A program made the position numbers and the translations under genes. From positions 58,645 to 122,644 of the forward strand of contig CANXME010000228.1 of NCBI GenBank assembly GCA_948144175.1: 64,000 bases of DNA. Direction: 5' to 3'. Source of the stretch: Closterium sp. NIES-65. Its lineage: Eukaryota; Streptophyta; Zygnematophyceae; Desmidiales; Closteriaceae. Positions 49,455 to 62,200 of the stretch are shown here, in pieces. Numbering within the stretch: the first letter of the stretch is position 1; each line of letters opens with the position of its first letter. The notes below the pieces were generated by a model, which had not been told where the DNA came from, made no database searches, and was given only the letters and a program-made list of their open reading frames with translations.

Positions 49455-49902
49455 CCACTTACCAAGCCCGTCAGCAAACCCGATAGGGTGATCATAAGAG
49501 TTTTGTTTTTACTACTCACGTTATCGCGTCCCATGTTGGTTACTTGTGACATAATTTCCCAATGCTTTCTCTCCCGCAGTCTCGTCTTCACGTCGTTCAC
49601 CCTGGAAAAAAAACATATACTACAGCAATAGCGAGCTGTACCTGCCCAGGCTCAGCACCCTATACTGGCAGCGATTTCCGCCGCCATTTCAAAACAAGAC
49701 TCGACGTTTACGTCGAAAGGGTTGCATAGAGTTGTATCCTTTTTATAAGAAACATTGTGGTACTTATAGAAGTATCTACTATAGTGGGTTTTATGTTTGC
49801 AACTACTGTACTGTATCTGATGTGTCAGCAAGTTCAGTAGTATTGTATATAGGATTTGGTGCCTCCTTCTAAGCTGGCAGAAATTTCTTGCCAGTCCATC
49901 CG

Positions 49903-49965
49903 GGCCCTGGTGGAAGGAATCCCACCAGGTCCCCCTCCTGGTGGAAACGGGTTTCCACCAGGGCC
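49903..49965. repeat. Nested perfect inverted repeat
   Basis: Outer arms GGCCCTGGTGGAA (49903-49915) and TTCCACCAGGGCC (49953-49965) are exact complements. Inner arms CCACCAGG (49922-49929) and CCTGGTGG (49937-49944) are also exact, and are themselves related to the outer arms. Confidence 0.9.
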
Positions 49966-50235
49966 GCACGCGGATGCCTGGTGTGTCGCGACTCGCAGCT
50001 GGGAATCGCACGCGAGAGGGAGTCCCCCGCCCCCTCCCAGGTCCCTAGCGAGATCCGGGCGGCGGAGCAAGCTGGCGGGGTGGTCCCGCGCCGAGCCCGG
50101 GCCACGCCAGCGCCACGCAGCGTGGTCCCAACCCCGGCCCCCCCCGGGCCCAGCCCTGGCTCGCGAAACCCCTCGCGAAACTCATCGCTCTCCAATCCGA
50201 GGGCGAGGGCCGAACCCCAGCGCGCCGAAACGGAT

Positions 50236-50500
50236 CCGGCCAATCGTAGCCGTTTCCGAGTGGTCTGTCCCTCGGAGAACCCTCGCGAAGCATTTCGCAT
50301 GCAAATCCGCGCGTGCGAATGGCAATTCGGGCTGGCCGAAAAGGATTCGGCCAATGGGAGCCGGTTTCGAAGCGACGGGTGAATCGGCGCGCGTGCGAAG
50401 CCATCTCCGTGCTTCCCGAAATGGAGCCGGCCAATCGCCATCGTTTACGAGCGTCGGAATGCTCGCAAGACCCTCGCGAACAATCGTTCCCGGAAAGCAT
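50236..50500 (+). promoter_or_regulatory. Possible promoter region with three CCAAT words
   Basis: Three ggccaat(c/g) words lie in a diverged repeat about 620-890 bp upstream of the proposed start of gene P. CCAAT is a known promoter element for NF-Y. The same words may simply be a decayed tandem repeat. Confidence 0.25.
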
Positions 50501-51527
50501 GCTGGGATTAAATTTACGGAGCGGAGTGTACGCCATTCGAAAGATCAAACGATATAATCTCTAATGCATCGGGGAAATATTCAATTGCGAGTTTACGTGT
50601 AATATAACGGAGTGTAGTGTTAATTCGGGTGACCCAAATTGGTGTACCTGATCGTTACCTTGGACCTCGGCGGTCGCGACGAGGAAAATTCTCTCTCCGC
50701 GGGAGTTGGCAGCCCGCTACGAACGGGGCTCGCGGATGGTGTGCAACGTGGCGGACGTTGGCTGCACAAGCGTGCATGTTGCGGACCTCCCCGCTTGTCA
50801 AGTCGAAAGCGGCGCGGGGTGAGAGGCCCGCGCAGTTTGACCGTGAGTGCCGTCTCTTGATTCCCCTCGGCCCTCTCTTAGGTTCTCGGTACGGGCACCT
50901 GGTGCTAATTTTCGTTCTCCGTCTTCACATCTTGTTTTCTTCCTGCTCGTCCGTTCCACGTAGAGTTCCTCATCGCCTAGTGCTAGCAAAGACTCTGCTT
51001 GGCCGCGTTCGCGCTTGGTAGCGTTAAGCTTAGCTCTTATTTTCTGCCGTGAGCACTGTTTCGCGTACCGTTCGTCCTAGATACACCGTACCTGTGGTCG
51101 CACTCTTGCGGTCGTACCAGTAATGAACCGCGAAATGAAGGCGCTTAGAGCTGGGTCGAAGGAGGCCGCCTCCTGTCCGACCATCATCTCTGTTGCGGGA
51201 GCCACGGTGGACCTCCCCCCCGAACAGTGGAAGCTGCTCGCTGAGGATAAGCATCCGTTCACGGCCCGTCTGTTCGACTTTGTCACCGGGTGAGATCCAT
51301 GCGTTCCATTCCCTGACTTCACTATGCACGCGTTGTTTATGGTCGCGGTGTTTAGGCTGTTCGCGACATGTCAGCAATATTTACTAGGGGGTAGTGCAGG
51401 CCGCGGCATACCTCCGCTGTGCTTTTAGGTCGCGTTGTTTATGGTTGAGCTTTTTCCCGCCGTGTTTTACACCGTCCCGCACAGCGTGATTGTCCGGAGG
51501 TATATGGAGAAGGAGGTGCATGAGCAC

Positions 51528-51651
51528 TGTCAGAATATTATGCTCTAGCCTGTAGTGGGGTGCTCTATAGCGAGTACAACCCTTCTAGGGTTTGCTATTT
51601 GTATCCTCATTCTTGCTAGTGCAACCCTCTTCTTTCTTCTAAATTTTCACA
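51528..51651 (+). repeat. 5' LTR of element F
   Basis: TGTCAGAATATTATGC ... AAATTTTCACA, identical to the 3' copy. Confidence 0.97.
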
Positions 51652-51666
51652 TGCTATCAGAGTAGG
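51652..51666 (+). promoter_or_regulatory. Primer binding site, element F
   Basis: tgctatcagagtagg directly after the LTR; initiator tRNA-Met type with two differences from that of element B. Confidence 0.75.
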
Positions 51667-51744
51667 TCGATCCCCTTGGATCGATCCTGTGGGTGGGCTC
51701 ACCACCTCGTTGCTTCCGCTGCAACTGCTACTGCTACTCTCTGT

Positions 51745-51877
51745 GCCGCACGCCCCGTGGCGTGCGGCAGTTTTTCTTCCCGCCGTGCGCCCCGAGGCGC
51801 GCGGCAATTTTCTGCCCGCCGTGCGCCCCGAGGCGTGCGGCGGTTTTCTGCCCGCCGTGCGCCCCGAGGCGTGCGAC
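51745..51877 (+). repeat. Four tandem leader hairpins of element F
   Basis: Units begin at 51745, 51782, 51818 and 51854 (36-37 bp period). Each can form a stem of about 10 bp around a four-base loop: arms GCCGCACGCC/GGCGTGCGGC around CCGT in the first, and GCCGTGCGCC with its near-complement around CCGA in the others. Short T-containing spacers separate them. The stem-loop matches the single leader hairpin of elements B, C, D and E. Confidence 0.85.
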
Positions 51878-52096
51878 GGGTTTCTGCCCCGTCACTCGGC
51901 GCGTCGCCCCCGGGAGGCGCTGCGACGGGCGACGGGGACCCGTGCGTCGCCCCCCGTCGCCGCTCCTATCGGCCCCGAACCGCCGCCAGCAGCCCCGTCG
52001 TCGCCGCCAGCGGCCCCGCCGCCGCCACTTGCGGCCCTGGCCCCGCCCCGGCCATGCCTCGTCGCCAGCCGCGGCGCACCGGGGGCACGTGCACCG

Positions 52097-52132
<36 letters not shown>
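52097..52132 (+). repeat. 36-base C homopolymer
   Basis: An uninterrupted run of 36 C lies in element F. The minus strand is poly-G. The true length may differ because such runs are hard to sequence. Confidence 0.85.
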
Positions 52133-52499
52133 ACCTTTTCCCGTCGCCTGTCGAGGCGACCTGGGGGAAGGGGGCGAGCGTCGCCCCTTCTGCCGCCTGC
52201 TTTGGCGCCCAGGGAGGCCGCACGTCGCCCCCCCCCCCCGTAACCTCTCTACCCACCATCCCGCCCTGCCCTGTGTTCGGGTTTGGGGGTGGCGAGTGGG
52301 GGGTGGCGGGTGTGTGGTCTCCCCTGCTCCTCCTCCTCCTCTGTCTCCCACTGCTGCAGCTGCCGCTGAGGGGGGTGGGTGTGTGGGAGTCGACGGAGTG
52401 GTGCTAGGGGGTGGGGTGTGAGTGACCCTAGGGGTGCAGTAGGGGGTGTGTGAAATGGGGGTGGGATAGTTTGGGGAGGTTGAAGGGGGTGGCCGCCGA

Positions 52500-52715
52500 G
52501 AAGCCAGCAGCTCCAGTCGCCCGTGAGACCGTTGCGCCAGTCGCCCGTGAGCCCGTTGCGCCAGTCGCCCGTGAGTCCGTTGATCGTCTGCCGCTACTTT
52601 TAGCCGCGGAGCCAATTACTCCAGTAGCCCGTGTGCCAGTTGCTCCAGTTGCCAGTATGCCAGTTGCTCCAGTTGCCCGTGTGCCAGTTGCTCCAGTTGC
52701 GCCGTGTGTCAGCAG
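52500..52715 (+). repeat. 21-24 bp tandem repeat in element F
   Basis: Units such as ccagtcgcccgtgagcccgt and ccagttgcccgtgtgccagt repeat about nine times. One frame (52450-52785) reads PVARxPVA repeats, but there is no start context or domain, so I treat it as a minisatellite. Confidence 0.75.
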
Positions 52716-52918
52716 CTTCAGCTGCCGCCCACTACCTCCTCTCCTCTCATATTCCCTCCTCCTCCACACTAGCCCTCTGCGGTAGCCTCTAGCTTTGCTC
52801 ATAATTGTGAACTTTAAACTATTGCTTCTTGAACTTGTGCTCAGAATGTGTGGTGACATTGTGATCCACCCTGAGCTTGTACTGCTTTGCTTGCTCTGCT
52901 GATTACACCCCACTTTGG

Positions 52919-52929
52919 CTATGGGGGTG
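52919..52929 (+). promoter_or_regulatory. Polypurine tract, element F
   Basis: ctatgggggtg, identical to that of the five pol-bearing elements. Confidence 0.8.
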
Positions 52930-53053
52930 TGTCAGAATATTATGCTCTAGCCTGTAGTGGGGTGCTCTATAGCGAGTACAACCCTTCTAGGGTTTGCTAT
53001 TTGTATCCTCATTCTTGCTAGTGCAACCCTCTTCTTTCTTCTAAATTTTCACA
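52930..53053 (+). repeat. 3' LTR of element F
   Basis: Identical to 51528-51651; followed by TSD agcac. Confidence 0.97.
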
Positions 53054-56000
53054 AGCACGTCCGAATCGTGACGAGCGGTGTTGTCGCGGACATAGTCGCG
53101 GGTCGCGATGAAGCGGTCCAAGCCTTTGCCGGTTTGATGGAGTGCAGCCTGGTGGTTTTCTGCATCTGGTCCGAGTGAGTGTTCATTGGGAGTGTTCACT
53201 TGTACAGGGAATGCACTCGTTTACGTGGTTTAGCGCGGTCGTCAATGGCACGTTCAGGGACTTGATCGACAAGAAGCGCTCGAACGCGAGCATGCTCATT
53301 ATGCTTCACCCTGACCACCTGTCGCTTGACGGTGACGAGACTTGGAACACGCGGTTCGTTCGCGTTGCTATTCCCACTGGTGGTGCGGAACACGTCACCG
53401 CGGTGGAGGCGATTGTGGAGTGAGTACCGCGTACTGGTTTATCATCAGTACCACGTTCATTTCCGCACCGAGGCTCATGTCGCTAACCGTGCGTTCGTGT
53501 GGATATGTATGTGCTTTTGGGCAGGTGGTTTCAGGGTCGCGTTGACGAGGATTTTGCACGCGGCTCCATTCAGTGCACCCGCTCCCGCCAGCTTAAGGAT
53601 CCCAAGTGTCTGTTGGATCTGGTACGTCTGTGTTGTGTACGTGTTCTCGATGACCGCGAATAGTTGCAGTGGTGCTAACAAACCCCATGTTATGTTTTCC
53701 AGGACGCGACGTCATTGAAGGGCTCCTGCGGCAATCTCGCTTGTTTGTTCGCGTTCGACAAGATCCTTGCCCAGTTGGACGCGGTCGCTCCCAGTGGATC
53801 CGGGCCGCAATTCTCGAGGCCAACCGCGAAGACTCTGAATGCACTGCGGCATGAGGCGTACCAAACCGCCGAAGAGCTCGCGTTCAACTTGAGCGTGGAT
53901 TTGACGCGACCCAAGCACGGCGGTGAGGCTGAAGGTGCTGAAATGGGGAAGGTGCAGAAAGTGGCAACGGGTGTGCAAGTTGCTGACCATGGTGTTCTCG
54001 CTCTCACAGGTGCCGCTGGTGTTTCGAACCGCGGAGGTGCTCGGGGGGGGGACGGTGGTCCACGCTAATGGCGAAGGGGCCGAGGATACCGCGACTAAGG
54101 GTGCAACCCGCGATGAGGCTGACCGCACTGTTGTGCGTGAGGGGGAGGAGTCGAGCGAGGAGGAGGCGGAGGCTCACGTGGTAGCGGCCGCGGCATCCAG
54201 CAGGCCCACTACATCCGGCAAGAGCATCAACCACCTCGCGCAGCACTTGGCCCCCGGTGCTGGAAGCGCGGGCCCGAGTGGTGAGGTCGCGGGCAAGAGT
54301 CCCGTGACAGGTGCGCGTGATCACGCGTCCCTATCCTCGTTGCCATCGCATAAGCTTGCTGCCGAGATCCTGCAGCTCGAATGCAGGCTTGCAGCGCAGG
54401 CCGAAGAGAACGCACGGCTGAAGAAACGCCAGGAGTCGGGGGTTGGTGGGGTCGCGGTCGTGGGCTCTGAGGAGCTTGCGTCCGCGCTTGCTAATGCGGT
54501 TCGGGTGTTGGAGAAGGAGGCGAGGGCGATCGCGCAGGAAAGAGCGGCCCTGGTCGATACGCGTAACCAGGAGGCGTTGGTGCTGGGGCGAGTGGACGCG
54601 AGGCTGGACAGGTGCAGGGGGTGGTGGCAGACTCCATGGAAACCGCTCAGAAGAAGCTGACGGACGAGGTTGCGCGGAAGATCGACAACATGTCGACCGC
54701 GGTCTCCGCGACAGCAGAGCGGGCAGTCACCACCAGCGGGGTCACGAACGCGCTGCACACCCTCATCGCGCTCGTTGGAGGAGGCCCCCCGCCGCGCACG
54801 GATAATGAAGGAACGGCCGCGACGGAGATTGCCGAGCCCGGGGATGCAGAGCATGGAAAGCGGGCAACGGGTGCGAAGGCGGAGAATCAACGGGGGGCGA
54901 AGAGGCAGAGAGGTCCCCAGGCAGCGGCTGCGGTGCGCAATCCGAGCGTGCAGGACATGCTGAAGCAGAAGTGGGGCGCTACATTGCGAGGTGCAGCACC
55001 GCCTGGTCAACCGGGTTCGAGCTCGTGCTCCATCCCACCTGGAGAAGCTGCACCCAAACCACCGGGCCCTGCCGGGGCAACCGCAACAGTGACAACTACT
55101 GTGGGTCGGGGCAAGGGTAAGGCGGAGGATGGAGAGGCGCCGGCTGCTGCGGGTTCGCTGGCCTCCAGGCGTGAGGTCCAGTCCGCAGCGGCTGCTGCGG
55201 CAGAGGGCAGGCAGACCACGCTCGCACCCGCTCGTGCTGCAATCACCACGGGAAATCTGCACAGCGCACTGGCATCTGCAAGTCCTATCGCGGCCTCGGT
55301 CGAGGTCAAGGCGGAGAAACGCGGACGGGGTGGCAAGAAGTTGCCCCCTCCACCCGTGTACACGATCGACGAGGACGATGCAGATGAGGAGCTGGAGGGT
55401 CTCGTGAGCAGGTGGGTCGAGGCGGGCGACGGAGGAGAGCAGGGTGGGGAGGCCGTGGTCGATGTTTATAGCGGCGGGGAGAGCGCGGACGAGCAAGACG
55501 GAGACCCCGTGGTCGTGGAAGGTGGCACAACGGGAGGACATGGTGACACCGGCCCCAAGCGCAGGGGCTGCGGCATCCGCGCTCCACCCAGGGGCGGGCC
55601 CGGATTGGTTTCTGAACCCCATCTGGGGGGGAAGAAGCGATGGCTCGGACATGGCAACCGCCAAGACCTGCAGTACAAGACCGCGATCGCAATGTATCCC
55701 TACGACGGGAAGGTCGACCCCAGGCTGAACCTGAGCCAGCAGCAGATCCGAGAATGGGCCGCGGACCTGTCCATCGCCGAGGGGTTACATACGGGCCTCT
55801 TAATCACCATGCACTACCGCAACCTCGTGGCAAGCAAGGACAGGTGAGCTGTGCCAATCCACCATCATCTAGTGCGTTCATACGGTTTGGTATGTTATCA
55901 TGTTCTGGCCGCTCCAACCCACTGCGTGGCAGGTGGCAACGCATGTTCGATTCCTATCGCGGGCTAACCAAGCCTGGAATGCACACCACCAACGTAATTG

Positions 56001-56509
56001 CATGGGCTGCGGTGGTAGGCAAGGAGGCTGCAGCAGAAGAAGCGGATCTCGGCGATGTGGAGCCGACGGACTACGCGGGAGCGATCGCATGCGCCATTGC
56101 AATGGTGTGGGAGGTCACTCGCGGTTCTAACGTCACTGCCGCAGCGGATAATGGAAATCTGGCCGCCCGAGCTGCTGGTTGCTATGGAGAGCGAAGCCGT
56201 CTCTTCCCCGTAGTATCCGCGTTTGTCATCAATGCGGTGCGAAAGCGCAATTGCCGCGAACATCAGCAGGCTGAGGAAGATGAGCCACAAGTTGTCGCGG
56301 ACCCGAAGGCGGTCGCCGCCGCGATCGTGTCTGGAGTCGTGAACGAGGTCGTTGCAAAGTCTCGCGATCTCAGGCACATTGAGTTGGCCGCCCGCGAAAC
56401 GGTGGACGTTATCATCACCTGGTGCGACTGCTCGGTGGCAGGGAAGCAGATGGATTCCTTGGGTTTGTACCTTGCCCTGCCCAAGGATCGTGTGAAGAAG
56501 CGGACTTGA

Positions 56510-56903
56510 GTGCGTGTAGTATCGCGTAGCATGTGCACAGCTTGTCCGCCATGCTTGAGTTCTACTTGCGGTGGATTGTGCTGGGCTTGCGGATCTGTGT
56601 GCATGTAGTATATCGTGTGTGTGTGTGTATGTGCGCGCGCGCGTGAGAACATAGTGTTGACATTTGGAACAATATGTGCTGGAGTTATACTCGCGGTGGA
56701 CTGTTCTTAACTTACGTACTTTGTGTGTGATCTTTTGTAGGATTCAGTGGGTGCGTGTGTTTGCGCGTGTGCCATTTTAGTAGTAATCTGCATTCGACTC
56801 AGGTATTCCCACACATTATCACTGTACACACTACGACGCAAACAATCTATATACATTAGGCAACAGCAGCCCACGATCACCACGGCCGCGATGTAAATCA
56901 GCA
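56510..56903. other. Spacer between convergent genes P and Q
   Basis: It contains a (gt)n/(gc)n microsatellite (about 56611-56645) and AT-rich text. No gene is seen. It should hold the 3' UTRs of both genes. Confidence 0.5.
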
Positions 56904-57743
56904 CTATTTTCGCGCAAAACAACAACACTCGCGGTCGATTATAGGGACCCATAACATCGCACCCGAAGACAGTGATATCAAGACGAACAAAAGCGAGGTC
57001 AATCCATTTACTGTAAGTCTGGCATCAGCGCACAGTACTGGGGGCCACGCGACCGTGAACTCAGACGCGGGAAGAGAGGCATTGATGAGACGGTCGCGAA
57101 CAAGCATCCATTTCACACGCAACTGCAACTCCACCGGAGAACCCTTCTTGAGCTGGCTCAGTTCCAGGTCAACACTCTTCTTCTTTACCGCGATCCCTTC
57201 CGATACACCCGACATGCCCACAGCTCCTGACACGAGGTCGAGCTTGTCGAGCACTACCGCGATGTCGTCTCCTTGCTCCACCCTGTGGGCGATGAAGTTC
57301 ATGAGTCGCTTGACACGGTTTATCACGTTCTGACCGCCTCCCTCCTCCCCAATGAGCGCGGCCATTCGCGTAACTGCACCGCGGGGCTGGGCCAGAAGCG
57401 ACTCTGGACTCTCGCGGATCAGCGGGTGCGTTGTCTTGTACAGCTTCCATCCGTCTGACGGTTTGGTGGCGTTGACCCATGGAAGGACGATCGCGTCCCG
57501 AATCGTCTGTTCCCTGGTGGGCGGTGCGGGTTTCTTCCGCGTCCCCTGCTCGGTGGGAGTTGTGGCATTGGTCGGCGCGGCCGCGGCTCCAGGATTGGTT
57601 GCCTAGTTTCGGAACCGCGGGTCGGCCCTGAGCTGCTCACGGTGAGCCGCGACAGCTGGGCCTCCAAATTATTCACGCGCTCGTCCTTCGCGGCCAGCTT
57701 CCGATCGCGATCCTCCAGCAGCCCCTCCAGCTCTTTCACCCGG
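56904..57743 (-). CDS. Probable C-terminal exons of gene Q (coiled coil and tail)
   Basis: Directly after the TAA at 57744 another frame reads NRVKELEGLLEDRDRKLAAK, a continuation of the coiled coil that ends the recombinase core. From CTCACC|GTGAGC to AAACTAG| a 38-bp intron would keep phase 0 and join it to ATNPGAAAAPTNATTPTEQG and then DAIVLPWVNATKPSDGWKLY, MAALIGEEGGGQNVINRVKR and a helical segment to about 57015, where a GTAAAT donor follows RLT. Without that splice the frame ends at 56904 in a hydrophobic stretch. The junction with the core needs an unseen splice or a frameshift, so this may be a separate gene. Confidence 0.4.
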
Positions 57744-59831
57744 TTATGAGGTCGCGACCAACTCTAGGCCCAGTCTGGTGTTGTCCGCTTGTGAACGAGT
57801 CAGGTACTCAGTGAGGATGGTCACTTGGTTCTGCGCGTCCATTCTGGTACTCACCTCCTGCATGGACAGAAAGCGACCGCGAACTTGTTATGGTTTGGCA
57901 TTGACATCACAGCCGAAAGATAACGCGACCATGCAGTACTTACTGCGGGCTGGGTCAGTGTAGGTGTGTTGCGCTGTACTATGGCGAGTTGATTTGCCAA
58001 TGAGACATCTGCAGCCCACGACGCAAATTCCTCCGTCTGGCAGAGCGGGTTGTTGACCACGTACGGGTGTCGCGGCTGGTGGATGTAATACATTGCCAGG
58101 TCTTGCGCGACCGCCATCCTAGCGTCACCATCCAGCTCCTTCATTATGTTTAGCCCCGTGGTGTCCTGCTTCTCCGGCTTCTGCTTTTTCACCATCTTGC
58201 GGTTGTAATCCTTGCACTGTGACAAGAAAACAACGCGGTAGTGAACGCGGTGCCAGAGGGTTATGTGGGATGCTTGCGGTCGCGTATGCGCGGCCCACAC
58301 ATACATGTTGCTGTTCTTTGTCCGCGGCGGCCCATGGGAAAATGTGCTTCCTCAGTAGCTCATCCAGCTTATCGCTGACCGGAACAGTTGCGCGACCCAG
58401 GAAGTAGTCACCGTCAACCCCGGTGAAGCCCGCCTTCAGCAGCACGGCCTCCCTCGGAATGGTTGTGAGGTAGTGCTTAGTCATCACGTTGATGAAGCGC
58501 CAACCCCCCAGCCTCGCCAGCTGATCCGAAGGCATTCCGTCCGCGGACACGTGCTGCGCCCCCCCAGCCCTGGTCGCGTGTACCGCACGCGAGCATGTGA
58601 TTCCCGCATCCTGGAGAATCTTCGCCGCCCAGTCGTGATGAGTCGTGGGCGGTATTTGCTTCTCATTGCCAGCGCGAAGGGGGAAGAACAGGTATTGATC
58701 GTACCACGTCGAGGGTTCCGTAAAGTCGAGAGGGGGGGCTATGTCCTTGTAGAGGATGGGAACCAAGTCGTACACCCAGTGCAGCCACAGCAGCGTGGCT
58801 CCGACCGCGCACAACGTCCAATCTATGTGCCTCATAGCAGATATGTAGTTGAGCGAGAAGTCCTTGTTTGTCTTGCCCGTCCTGCACGCGCAAACAAACA
58901 TGAACGCATTCCTCAGTCGATCGGTCTCCGATTTTGCGCCGAGCTTCCACATCATCATGTCTGGCAGCTGCAGGTTTCTGATCGTGCATCCGTGGGCCAG
59001 AGTGTGATGGCCGAGCACGGTCATCGTCCGGATGCAGAGGTCGCGATGCATTGCCTGCGTGTATGCTTTCTTGGCTAGTGTGAAGCTGGTCAAGATCGCG
59101 TCCATGCTGGTCTTCCGCATCATATAGTTGAACTCGTCCGGGGTGTACGTGTCCGCGGCCGTGCCTCGATGGCGATCCATGTGTTCCCTGCGCATCGATT
59201 GGGGCGATAGTGGCGGGTGTTAGTGGACGCGGGTATTGTTGGGCATTAAATGCGTTCACTGAGAACGTATACTTACGCGATAAACCGCTTGTACTGGTTG
59301 CGTACTTGAACGCGGACCCAGATGCGACACTCCGCAAAGTCGCGCAGCAGGTTCAGAACGGGCTTCCTGAAGATGGCCTTGTCCAGCTTGATGAGCAGGT
59401 TCAAAGCCTTGAGACGCCCCATCAGCATTGCCGGGGTGCACTGGCGTCTCTTCTTCAAGGTCTTCTCTGGCCGCTTGAGTGTGGCCATCCTGTCCGCCTG
59501 CGCGACTGTCTCGTTCGCGAGGAAGGTCACGTATTTGCGTAAGCGCCACGGATTCGTCTCAGAGCCGTGGAACCACTGCTCGTCGCCCTCCGCCATCTTC
59601 CAGTCACCACCCATGTTCTGTTCGAGCGCGGCCCCTATCTCGTCGGGGTCCGCGTTTCTCAACGCCGGCCTCATCACCAAACCTACCCGCGTCCAGTTTA
59701 GGCAGCTCGTGAGCCATGAACCGCTTGTACTCGTTGGCCCAACCGCGATACTTCTTCAGCGTGGCCTCAGAGACACCGTAGAGGATTCCGTAGCACATCT
59801 CTCGTTTCGCGGCCGGTGGTGTCGTCCACAC
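57744..59831 (-). CDS. Gene Q: Crypton/Ndc10-like tyrosine recombinase core
   Basis: Five exons join in phase: 59831-59687, 59634-59277, 59187-58305, 58216-57944, 57857-57744, about 590 residues. The first two encode a helical DNA-binding-like region (TLKKYRGWANEYKRFMAHEL, NPWRLRKYVTFLANE). The third holds the catalytic domain: a candidate first Arg in FVCACRTGKTNKD, then HATRAGGAQHVSADGMPSDQ with the HxxR box (58572-58583), RLGGWRFINVMTKHYLTTIP with the candidate Tyr nucleophile (58470-58472), then LLKAGFTGVDGDYFLGRA and a HIFPW end. This is the layout of the CBF3/Ndc10 DNA-binding domain found in Crypton transposons, whose enzymes cut and join DNA through a 3'-phosphotyrosine. The fourth exon shares AMY...WAADVSLA with gene P. 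The fifth is coiled-coil-like. It could be a mobile-element gene or a domesticated copy. Confidence 0.75.
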
Positions 59832-59860
59832 CTAGCCTGTTCCAATCCGCGATAGGGACC

Positions 59861-61189
59861 TCAAGGTCCCTCCGCGTACCCCGCACCCGTTCGTTGTCTT
59901 TCGCCCTCCTCCTCGTTGAGCCCGGACAGCGAGTTCGATAGGTAGTTTTCGTCATCGCCATTCCAACTATCGTCCGCATCGTCAGCGTCGTCCTTGTCAT
60001 CCTCATCGCTTGCCCCCTCGCTCCCCTCCCGGGAGACGTTGCGTGCCGTGTGCGGCACTACATCGACTCTCCGCCTCCTTATACACGGTCTATTAACTGG
60101 CCCGTTACCGGACCCCGCCGTTCGCGTTAACACCGCTACCCGAGCCGCCGTTACCTGTCACCTCATGCGCTCCCTGCCCGTTCGCACTATACTCGTTCGA
60201 TCCCACACCTGTCCCACGTCCCGCGCTTGCTCTCCCACCCCTTCGTCTCGCACCTCTCCCTCTAGCCGTGCTCCCTCTCTCCCCTGTCCCTCTTCCCGCG
60301 TTCCCTCTCGCACCCGTCCCTCTTCCCCTTACCGCGTTTCCGCTTGCACCCACTCCACGCCCCGCGTTCGCCTGTGGTTGCCCACCTACACCAGTCGCGT
60401 ACGCTACAGTCGGATGCGCGGGGGTGCGGATGTGGATGTCGGGGTTTCCGGGCAACAGTGAGTTCACGTTCCATATTGGCGGCGAATGTGCACGCGCGAT
60501 CGCATTCATCCCCGCTCCACCATTTCACCGCACGCCCTAAACCACCGGCATCCGCGTTCGATGATGGGCCCGTCTGTTCGCGCCCAGTGTGTACCAAACC
60601 GACAACTAATGCTTCTCTAGGGTCCTTGGCGGGGCTTGCACCGCTGGCTGGCTTTCCGGATGAATCGCGCTGGGGAATGGTGTTGACGGCGCGACAGGAG
60701 GCGTCGCGACAGATGCGGGTGCGTGCACCATGGGGGTCTGGTTTAACGCCGAAGTACCCGTACCTGAATCCCACGTTCGAGTACTGCGGCCCTACGAAGC
60801 CACGCACAGGCATCCCAAAGAGCTGGCTAGTGGGCACGGACGGGGACGCAATGTGTTGTCCAACGGGATGAGTCGTGGAAACTCCTTGCGCGGGTAACAT
60901 TTACCCGGTTGATTTTGTAAACGCGACCGCCGCTGCTGCAAACGGTATTTGTGGTCGCGGTGCTAGGTGGAGCCCCGTTTGACCAGTTGCTGTGGGTGGA
61001 ACGCGGGCATCCGGGACCCAAAACCACGGGCTGCACGTATGGGGTGCTCCATGTGGGGTTGAGCGCGTTCACCCCATGCACGGGAGCGGTAGGCGGTTCG
61101 GCATTATGGATTTGATGCGCGGTTGTGTTGCCCGGAGCATTGATGGAGTCGTGAAGTATTGGTGCCGCGACGCGATTCACGGTATGCAT
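59861..61189 (-). CDS. Possible N-terminal exons of gene Q (low complexity)
   Basis: Minus-strand frames here have protein-like but low-complexity character: an Asn/Pro/His-rich part (60900-61189), FVGPQYSNVGFRYGYFGVKP (60700-60830), an Arg/Gly-rich RG repeat (60180-60400) and an acidic segment with SEGASDEDDKDDADDADD (about 59950-60010). They lie just upstream of the recombinase core in the same direction, and the last ends near a G|GTACGC donor. I could not fix the splice sites or the start, so this is a weak call. Confidence 0.35.
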
Positions 61190-62200
61190 GCGGCGTGCGA
61201 GGATTGCACCTACTCCTATTCACCGCGTGCGTCAACATGATGCGCAGTCACTACTTGTACACCTGGGTGTGACTTAGGACCCGTCTACCTCGCGACCGAT
61301 TTGCTCGCGGACATTCGAGCGCGGCACACAACGTAACCGCGATACTGGTGTCCCGTTTTCCGTCTAAGTCAGGTGAATCCAGTGTGTCATGAGAGGGAAG
61401 AGCTTGGTATGCAACTGGCGATCGGAAAGTGGAAAATGTAGGCATGCTCGGAGTAATGACCGGACACTGCGTGGACGTGCTTGACACGTTATTCGTGATC
61501 GCGCATCGACCAAACAGCCACAGCTGTGTGGCTCGTTTCAAATTGCTGCACGTGTCAGCCAGCATGGAGCCTACCAGATCCCGCCAGCTGTAACCGAACC
61601 GGATCTCGCTGTGCGCTTTCCGTACCCATCCTTGTGCGAATTTTGTTCGCGATAAGTTGCGAGATAGCACAACCCAATAGTAGACACTCCTTTGGTGTCC
61701 CGCGGTTGCATGCGCGGGATGTCCCGCTCGTCAATGTTACCGACCAATCGTGTTCGTTTTCTACCGAGTCGCGCATGCATCGGCGCGTAAGAACGAGATG
61801 GGTTCTTTAGGTTTTTTGGGGGCTGCGGAGCTTTCGGTGGCCAGCCTGGTGGGTTTCACTGAGCACGCAAGGCCGCGCTAGGTCCAAACCTGGTGGGATT
61901 CTGGGTGGCCGACTTCGGCCCACGCTTCCCGCGATTTCTCCGCGCCTCGTGCATCCCAAGGCGTGGGCGGGGTTTTTGCCGAGTCGCGCCGTATGAACAT
62001 CCCAGCTCCACCACGACCCCAACCAAAGCCCAAGATATCTGTCCCTTTCACAGCTGTCAAACTCGAATTCGAGGCTTTTCATTTCTTGGTTCTTGTTCTT
62101 GGTTCCTCTCGAGAAGCACCTGCTTTTGCTCACTCCATTTCCTCCCCGCCCCAATTTCTTCTCTAGCCATTTCTCCTAACACCCCGCCGTCGCTACCTCC
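61190..62200. other. No confident gene
   Basis: Frames at 61251-61670 (minus) and 61526-61810 (plus) have no domain. The stretch 61800-62000 is GC-rich with repeated cctggtggg words, and 62100-62165 is pyrimidine-rich. It may include the start of gene Q. Confidence 0.4.

Follow-up and report, generated by a model that had tools for sequence, protein, structure and literature searches.

A Crypton-like DNA transposon family with an Ndc10-type tyrosine recombinase in Closterium sp. NIES-65

Introduction

Tyrosine recombinases are enzymes known above all in bacteria and in the viruses that infect them. Here we describe an element that carries a gene for such an enzyme in a 64,000-nucleotide stretch of DNA from Closterium sp. 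NIES-65 (hereafter the window), which lies at the end of contig C228 of the genome assembly. An earlier note on window positions 57744 to 61189 had pointed to a Crypton/Ndc10-like tyrosine recombinase gene in a plant-type genome, belonging to a Crypton-like element or to a domesticated descendant of one.

The closest described systems are the Cryptons. In passages of the 2011 Crypton paper (Kojima & Jurka; PMC3212892), the CryptonF elements of fungi and oomycetes are presented as DNA transposons with a tyrosine recombinase, without reverse transcriptase and without long terminal inverted repeats; terminal direct repeats of 4-6 bp in most fungal members and a GCR1_C domain are further features, and some known Cryptons also encode a C48 peptidase. 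The same passages state that Crypton transposition had not been studied until then and that element boundaries were hard to define. One figure legend of that paper lists Chlamydomonas among its sequences, the element not being stated, and the sites of classical tyrosine recombinases are quoted there as arms of 11-13 bp around a spacer of 6-8 bp.

We consider it likely, with a probability of about 0.85, that the feature in the window represents a single copy from a Crypton-like DNA transposon family, whose recombinase would join the two ends of the element and then recombine the junction with degenerate genomic sites. The element fits the broad Crypton definition as far as tested, and we do not class it as a CryptonF.

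Results and discussion

The enzyme encoded by gene 1

The core exon of gene 1, which holds the HATR and MTKHYLTTIP motifs, matched the Pfam family NDC10_II with E = 1.3e-13 and 51.1 bits (cut-off 26.3), and the same exon stayed below the cut-off against Phage_integrase (E = 0.064). Among the outcomes that would have spoken against its reading, the earlier note had named the lack of a match to profile hidden Markov models, and NDC10_II supplied such a match. Residues K105, H203 and R206 (H203xxR206), W229 and Y239 were invariant in all 13 aligned rows, seven of which are near-identical copies. The arginine at the Arg-I position (R65) was kept in 12 of the 13 rows, the window copy having H65. 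Loci L009 and L010 likewise have histidine at position 65 (loci are numbered with L and contigs with C), so this is a real change in the window copy and not a base-call error. The key catalytic residues recur in families that are only ~40% identical, which together with the NDC10_II score puts the recombinase call well beyond chance. The predicted gene 1 product is thus supported as a tyrosine recombinase of the Ndc10/Crypton type, as the earlier note had supposed. Two decayed relatives (L086 and L091) also lack R at the Arg-I position, and L086 has P for the HxxR histidine.

When a profile of the aligned rows was compared with solved structures, the best match was Cre, at a weak and not significant E = 0.36. 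Within this alignment the residue order is the same as in Cre: HxxR, W and Y line up, and so does the Arg-I position, in a still weaker stretch on which the Arg-I assignment rests. Conservation and residue order support the predicted active site. The R-(K)-H-R-Y tyrosine recombinase of the broad Crypton definition is thus found in the family, the window copy carrying H at Arg-I. Parts of gene 1 also gave sub-threshold low-complexity or coiled-coil matches in Pfam (Cwf_Cwc_15, E = 0.0037; PKcGMP_CC, E = 0.0013).

Ends, copies and empty sites

The assembly searched comprises 874 Mb in 2,400 contigs, and copy numbers are lower bounds, with 129 of 572 candidates scored in the copy search and 24 of 15029 in the nucleotide alignments. 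The earlier note had suggested looking for other copies and comparing their ends, and dozens of copies with exact common ends were found. These ends are common to dispersed copies with unrelated flanks, the exact bases being read from the flanks. Alignments of dispersed copies start near window 62003 (BLAST starts 62003-62023) and stop near 49890, so the element spans 62003 to 49893 and not the 57744-61189 given before. With up to 2 mismatches, 61 left ends and 106 matches to the 21-base 3' end were found in the assembly, and the reversed-pattern control gave 0 for each. The 5' end was visible in 16 of 20 ten-kb loci (absent from L017, L026, L027 and L028), and the 3' end in 14 of 19 3'-end pieces, of which L043 breaks off earlier and L044-L047 are without it.

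At five loci without large inserts (C1673, C2363, C1175, C1780 and C1883) the paired ends lie 10,240 to 10,517 bp apart; other end pairs measured 11,798 bp (C418), 11,945 bp (C1865) and 8,648 bp (C1657). The window copy reaches 12,111 bp because its gene 2 is interrupted by a 1.5-kb repeat whose direct terminal repeats measure 127 nt. This nested repeat is TRIM-like, and related sequence is also found beside copies L021, L026 and L027; by eye only, the C1175 copy appears to be inserted within one such short repeat.

Joining the two flanks of a copy gave 12 queries, of which six matched an uninterrupted site elsewhere in the assembly (C2101, C1657, C2165b, C1780, C2165a and C708). At all six empty sites the flanks meet exactly at T^(G), with no base duplicated or missing. 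Absence of target duplication is usual for tyrosine-recombinase elements, as stated in part of a published account (PMC3627910). Across ~150 bp, identity between empty site and flanks is 99% for C2101 and 97% for C1657, a level that would be expected if the empty sites belonged to the other haplotype; this suggests, without proving it, that the two insertions are polymorphic. The C708, C1780 and C2165a queries match several places and are therefore situated in repeats. The family is thus mobile and multicopy, with defined ends and empty sites, as the broad Crypton definition has it. Of the two possibilities in the earlier note, the element stood, and the domesticated descendant fell to the dozens of copies, the shared exact ends and the six empty sites.

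Junction site and targets

The joined ends of the element read CCGGATGGAC-TGGGAT-GTTCATACGG, that is, two inverted 10-bp arms with a 6-bp spacer. The arms match as inverted repeats at 8/10 positions, a value equalled by 32 of 20,000 shuffles; this half-site pair is all that the ends show, and long terminal inverted repeats are absent. A search for the junction pattern with up to 3 mismatches (control 0) gave 13 matches. Six of these are perfect head-to-tail junctions arrayed on C1769; C2187 and C191 contain three more, with 1-2 mismatches. We read the other four (C1865 with 2 mismatches; C1175, C1641 and C1780 with 3) as probable ordinary insertions at similar targets.

The targets are degenerate copies of the junction site. 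Identity to the left half-site was 0.489, compared with 0.189-0.342 at 30 shifted registers, and identity to the right half-site was 0.362, compared with at most 0.314. The targets have T at -1 in 18/19 and G at +1 in 18/21 rows. Tandem loci and duplicates were left out on both sides, as were, on the left, L016 (beside the 3' end of another copy) and L075 (picked for its junction likeness) and, on the right, L032 and L063-L065.

With the spacer left out, the left-end pattern fitted 102 places when up to 2 mismatches were allowed, against 3 for the reversed control. Of these, 45 were exact to the 20-mer that starts with the arm, tandem and haplotype duplicates included; the spacer comparison covers these 45 and not the other 57, which had 1-2 mismatches. 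Compared by eye, 37 of the 45 carried GGGAT and 8 were off by one or two bases; a random 5-mer is expected to fall within 2 mismatches of GGGAT in about one case in ten. Ends chosen by BLAST, with no pattern, had GGGAT in 13 of 14 loci (GGTAT in L018). Positions +2 to +5 of the right flanks showed no preference for GGGAT. Left-end spacers are thus element-derived and right-end spacers target-derived, which places the visible exchange at one spacer border. Such a one-border exchange suggests, but does not prove, strand-biased recombination.

Among 100 listed left-end places, 34 (e.g., C73:94947 and C1052:1219495) carry GTTCAGGCGGCGCGGCTCGG, two bases off the 5' sequence of the element; this sequence may be the terminus of another family, related or non-autonomous. 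At C450:1109270, 1131605 and 1162996, a 3' end is followed each time, ~311 bp downstream, by a 5' end of the same orientation, an arrangement that suggests head-to-tail duplication with a short spacer.

The 3' subterminal region folds with a minimum free energy of -28.3 kcal/mol (z = -4.79; 0/200 shuffles as good). A folded single-stranded 3' site of the integron kind was considered; the folding is strong, but 0/25 pairs showed compensatory changes, and the idea was not adopted. The 3' end holds two tandem palindromes on CCTGGTGG/CCACCAGG, and near the 5' end CCACCAGG recurs twice, at element positions 108 and 152. These palindromes are possible binding sites of an accessory factor.

Gene structure and selection

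The features of the window copy are collected in Table 1.

Table 1 Features of the Crypton-like element in the window (window positions)
Feature	Position	Strand	Remarks
Whole mobile element, this copy	49893..62003	-	12,111 bp including nested 1.5-kb repeat; 5' end GGGATGTTCATACGG at 62003, 3' end CCCGGATGGACT at 49893
5' terminal recombination half-site (predicted)	61989..62003	-	spacer part GGGAT, then arm GTTCATACGG
Gene 1 exon 1	59277..61238	-	Ala/Gly-rich N-terminus, then conserved region; open in L009/L010/L011, broken here by small insertions
Gene 1 exon 2	58305..59187	-	catalytic domain NDC10_II; K105, H203xxR206, W229 and Y239 kept; His at position 65
Gene 1 exon 3	57943..58216	-	inferred from splice motifs
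Gene 1 exon 4	57011..57857	-	coiled-coil-like stretch and conserved C-terminal region; frame broken here by one-base insertions; end approximate
Gene 2	51123..56509	+	several exons, convergent to gene 1; central coiled-coil/disordered frame, conserved C-terminus; limits and start read from sequence
Nested short repeat	51528..53056	.	127-nt direct terminal repeats 99% identical; in gene 2; skipped by other matching copies
3' subterminal palindromes CCTGGTGG/CCACCAGG	49893..49980	-	strong single-stranded DNA folding
3' terminal recombination half-site (predicted)	49893..49903	-	arm CCGGATGGAC and spacer base T

Over ~5 kb, C228 differs from the same locus on C2357 (L009) by 3 substitutions and 30 insertion or deletion (indel) events. 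Twenty-nine of these are small (25 one-base and 2 two-base insertions, 27 in all, and 2 one-base deletions); the 30th, of 83 bases, is merely the end of the cut piece. With 29 one- or two-base indels and 3 substitutions, C228 seems unpolished in window 57000-62003, and frames read from the window need caution. The low-complexity N-terminus, the HATR and MTKHYLTTIP motifs, the GF...YFLGRA...IFPW layout and the coiled-coil-like stretch reported in the earlier note are all present in minus-strand frames where it had placed them. The count of five exons given there is in part an artefact of the small C228 indels; from conserved splice motifs we infer four exons and three introns. The stop at 57744 has in part the same origin: it follows a one-base insertion near 57751, and the spliced frame runs longer in L009, L010 and L011, which would put the true end of the gene approximately near window 57011.

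The first exon is a single frame of 652 amino acids (aa) between stops in L009 and L010, and the conserved region at its end may be a core-binding domain. Splicing was tried on 12 copies, and the exact splice-motif patterns failed in six of them; the spliced lengths were 1,300 aa in L011, 1,307 aa in L020, 1,117 aa in L009 and L010, 1,103 aa in L016 and 471 aa in L014. Intact-looking copies have two convergent genes, one for a recombinase of ~1,300 aa and one for a second protein.

Gene 2, interrupted in the window copy by the nested repeat, has no Pfam match above cut-off (sub-threshold matches only, E = 0.05-0.1), and its central frame shows no similarity to the tail of gene 1. A PDB search covering the C-terminal frame, the central frame being left out, gave a ribosomal protein as the best match (E = 0.082), which was taken as chance. 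Among the matches listed in the assembly (128 of 195 candidates scored), the N-terminal exons of gene 2 match C708, C379, C2028 and C1990 at 69%, another C708 exon at 61%, and C926 and C1690 at 47-50%. Gene 2 probably encodes an accessory factor, which is a guess.

The ratio of nonsynonymous to synonymous substitution rates (dN/dS), averaged between copies with the pair L026/L027 skipped, was 0.24 in the catalytic exon of gene 1, 0.29 in the preceding 208 aa at the end of exon 1, 0.41 in exon 4 and 0.72 in the low-complexity N-terminus. For gene 2 it was 0.35 in the C-terminus and 0.67 in the centre. From these values, the conserved parts of both genes look to be under purifying selection and the low-complexity parts weakly so. 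In a six-frame Pfam scan of the element (E <= 0.01), NDC10_II was the sole match, with no other enzyme. The scan thus contained neither a reverse transcriptase nor a DDE transposase, in agreement with the broad Crypton definition, and a retrotransposon reading was rejected on the lack of reverse transcriptase.

Proposed mechanism and its alternatives

In the mechanism that we propose, the recombinase would join the two ends of the element into the junction site, presumably in a circular intermediate; the tandem junctions are consistent with circles without proving them. The junction would then recombine with degenerate versions of itself in the genome, probably through catalysis by the gene 1 enzyme, with the crossover between T and G at one spacer border. 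A crossover at this single border would leave nothing duplicated or lost, and the reuse of a resident copy's end as target would produce head-to-tail arrays. In both joining and insertion only one strand border would be exchanged, in a strand-biased and probably replicative manner. Our fuller picture is tentative and somewhat more likely to be wrong than right: by strand-biased replicative exchange the spacer would stay with the element through repeated cycles, and copies would build up with the aid of an accessory protein that belongs to no known family. The host lineage would be a streptophyte one, in which no report of a Crypton appeared among the papers listed by the literature searches, Repbase apart.

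Several observations weigh against the reading of the feature as a transposon of this kind. For six of the 12 joined-flank queries, the 40 candidates scored out of 1367 included no empty site, the C1798 copy is without a 3' end, and the left flank of L020 has G instead of T at -1. The likeness of the targets on the right-hand side is weak, only +6 and +11 besides +1 falling below p = 0.05. AlphaFold models reached a predicted local distance difference test score (pLDDT) of only 35 and 34 with the 13- and 16-row alignments, too poor to judge the clustering of R, K, H, R and Y, and the dN/dS values come without a shifted-frame or antisense control. Unequal crossing-over is another way in which tandem arrays expand, and on C1769 all junction regions but the first are 99.57-99.97% alike (five of six), while that first one is ~77% like the other five.

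One alternative is the canonical two-strand recombination of phages and Tn916-type elements, with cuts at each border of the 6-bp spacer and a heteroduplex that is resolved randomly or by repair. It would suit an enzyme family and an arm-spacer-arm site that are those of classical tyrosine recombinases. Random resolution, however, predicts many target-derived left spacers, whereas 37 of the 45 seen are GGGAT and the other 8 differ by one or two bases; two-strand exchange would also mix the spacers, and the right flanks show no such preference. A consistently biased repair could still rescue this model, which we regard as doubtful. We hold it unlikely that the overlap is very short, both strands being cut around the TG dinucleotide so that a symmetrical exchange is hidden because target and element share T and G. 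The most conserved bases of the junction are indeed the T at -1 and the G at +1, and the empty sites join exactly there; yet the inverted arms stand 6 bp apart, which fits an overlap of 6 bp better than one of 2, and the targets show G at +6 and left-arm preferences at that spacing.

Helitron-like elements make no target duplication, may form tandem arrays and have a hairpin near the 3' end. Rolling-circle transposition of that type would thus account for exact insertion without duplication, for the head-to-tail arrays and for the strongly folding 3' end, and mobilisation in trans by a Helitron elsewhere is possible. We nevertheless consider it very improbable: the six-frame Pfam scan found no Rep/helicase, the sole recognised enzyme is a tyrosine recombinase under apparent purifying selection, and the joined ends form an inverted-repeat site that the targets resemble. 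The extra N- and C-terminal parts of the large protein might recall a domesticated single-copy host gene, a reading that, for this family, is left with a negligible chance by the empty sites and by the exact ends that dozens of copies share.

Dispersed copies taken as non-allelic are up to 98.7% alike in their first 6 kb, and the Crypton-like family looks young. The copy in the window, however, is probably disabled, because Arg-I is changed to His and gene 2 is interrupted.

Comparison with known systems and diversity of the family

The NDC10_II domain links the element to CryptonF. Like the members of that group, it is a DNA transposon that encodes a tyrosine recombinase and lacks reverse transcriptase as well as long terminal inverted repeats. 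In contrast to most fungal members, only T is regularly shared at its ends instead of direct repeats of 4-6 bp, and Pfam scans of all frames of the window copy and of the L011 proteins gave no GCR1_C match. As both features failed, we call it Crypton-like and not CryptonF. It further differs in its length of 10.4 kb and its inferred four-exon recombinase gene, and, compared with the Cryptons that encode a C48 peptidase, its second gene has no match to that peptidase.

The bacterial elements called SEs, as far as described in parts of two papers (PMC9345347, PMC10214605) and compared here for mechanism only, likewise have tyrosine recombinases, a 6-bp spacer between two motifs and products of one-strand exchange. 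They differ in having several recombinases and in taking the spacer from the donor's left flank, so that it changes with each move, whereas here GGGAT stays in the element. DIRS, PAT and Kangaroo retrotransposons of algae also use a tyrosine recombinase, according to sections of PMC4157794; unlike them, the element has no reverse transcriptase in its six frames, and no search was aimed at split direct repeats. The ALOG proteins of streptophytes, in the portion of PMC3537659 consulted, are likewise plant-lineage proteins from a tyrosine-recombinase element; they derive, however, from the DNA-binding domain of DIRS-type elements, and the window element has no ALOG match in Pfam.

In a Pfam search of the assembly, 125 of 325 NDC10_II candidates were scored, and none of 14 control genomes matched; some of the assembly matches (e.g., on C430) lie outside the initial assembly-wide copy list. 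In viral contigs, 84 stretches fitted recombinase peptide patterns and none was confirmed. The gene 2 matches on C708, C379, C2028 and C1990 belong to an 11.75-kb subfamily with the same 5' end and a variant 3' end. The C708 recombinase core is internally deleted and frame-broken, and the four loci, whose flanks are near-identical, may be one duplicated insertion.

Host and neighbourhood

The plant-type genome proposed in the earlier note is borne out by chlorophyll a/b-binding genes in the same assembly, which holds many such matches. One of these genes was compared with solved chains. The top two were multi-domain 9vfj chains (whole-chain scores of 530 and 440 bits, which repeated domains inflate), followed by the single-domain chloroplast chains 7xqp and 8htu at ~401 bits, other light-harvesting complex II (LHCII) chains, and 6kac at 353-354 bits for most chains. 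We take 9vfj to be from Euglena, 7xqp and 8htu from moss and 6kac from a green alga, and infer a streptophyte host. C1798 carries both a chlorophyll-binding match and a copy of the element, which speaks against contamination.

In window 12000-48600, several related copies of copia-type long terminal repeat retrotransposons are clustered, some on each strand, together with GC-rich tandem arrays; two of the copies were typed by Pfam.

Significance

The family described here places an Ndc10-type recombinase, with further NDC10_II matches, in the plant lineage. Its ends are exact, its insertion sites occur both empty and filled, its recombination site can be predicted and some of its copies look intact, so that the mechanism is now open to direct tests.

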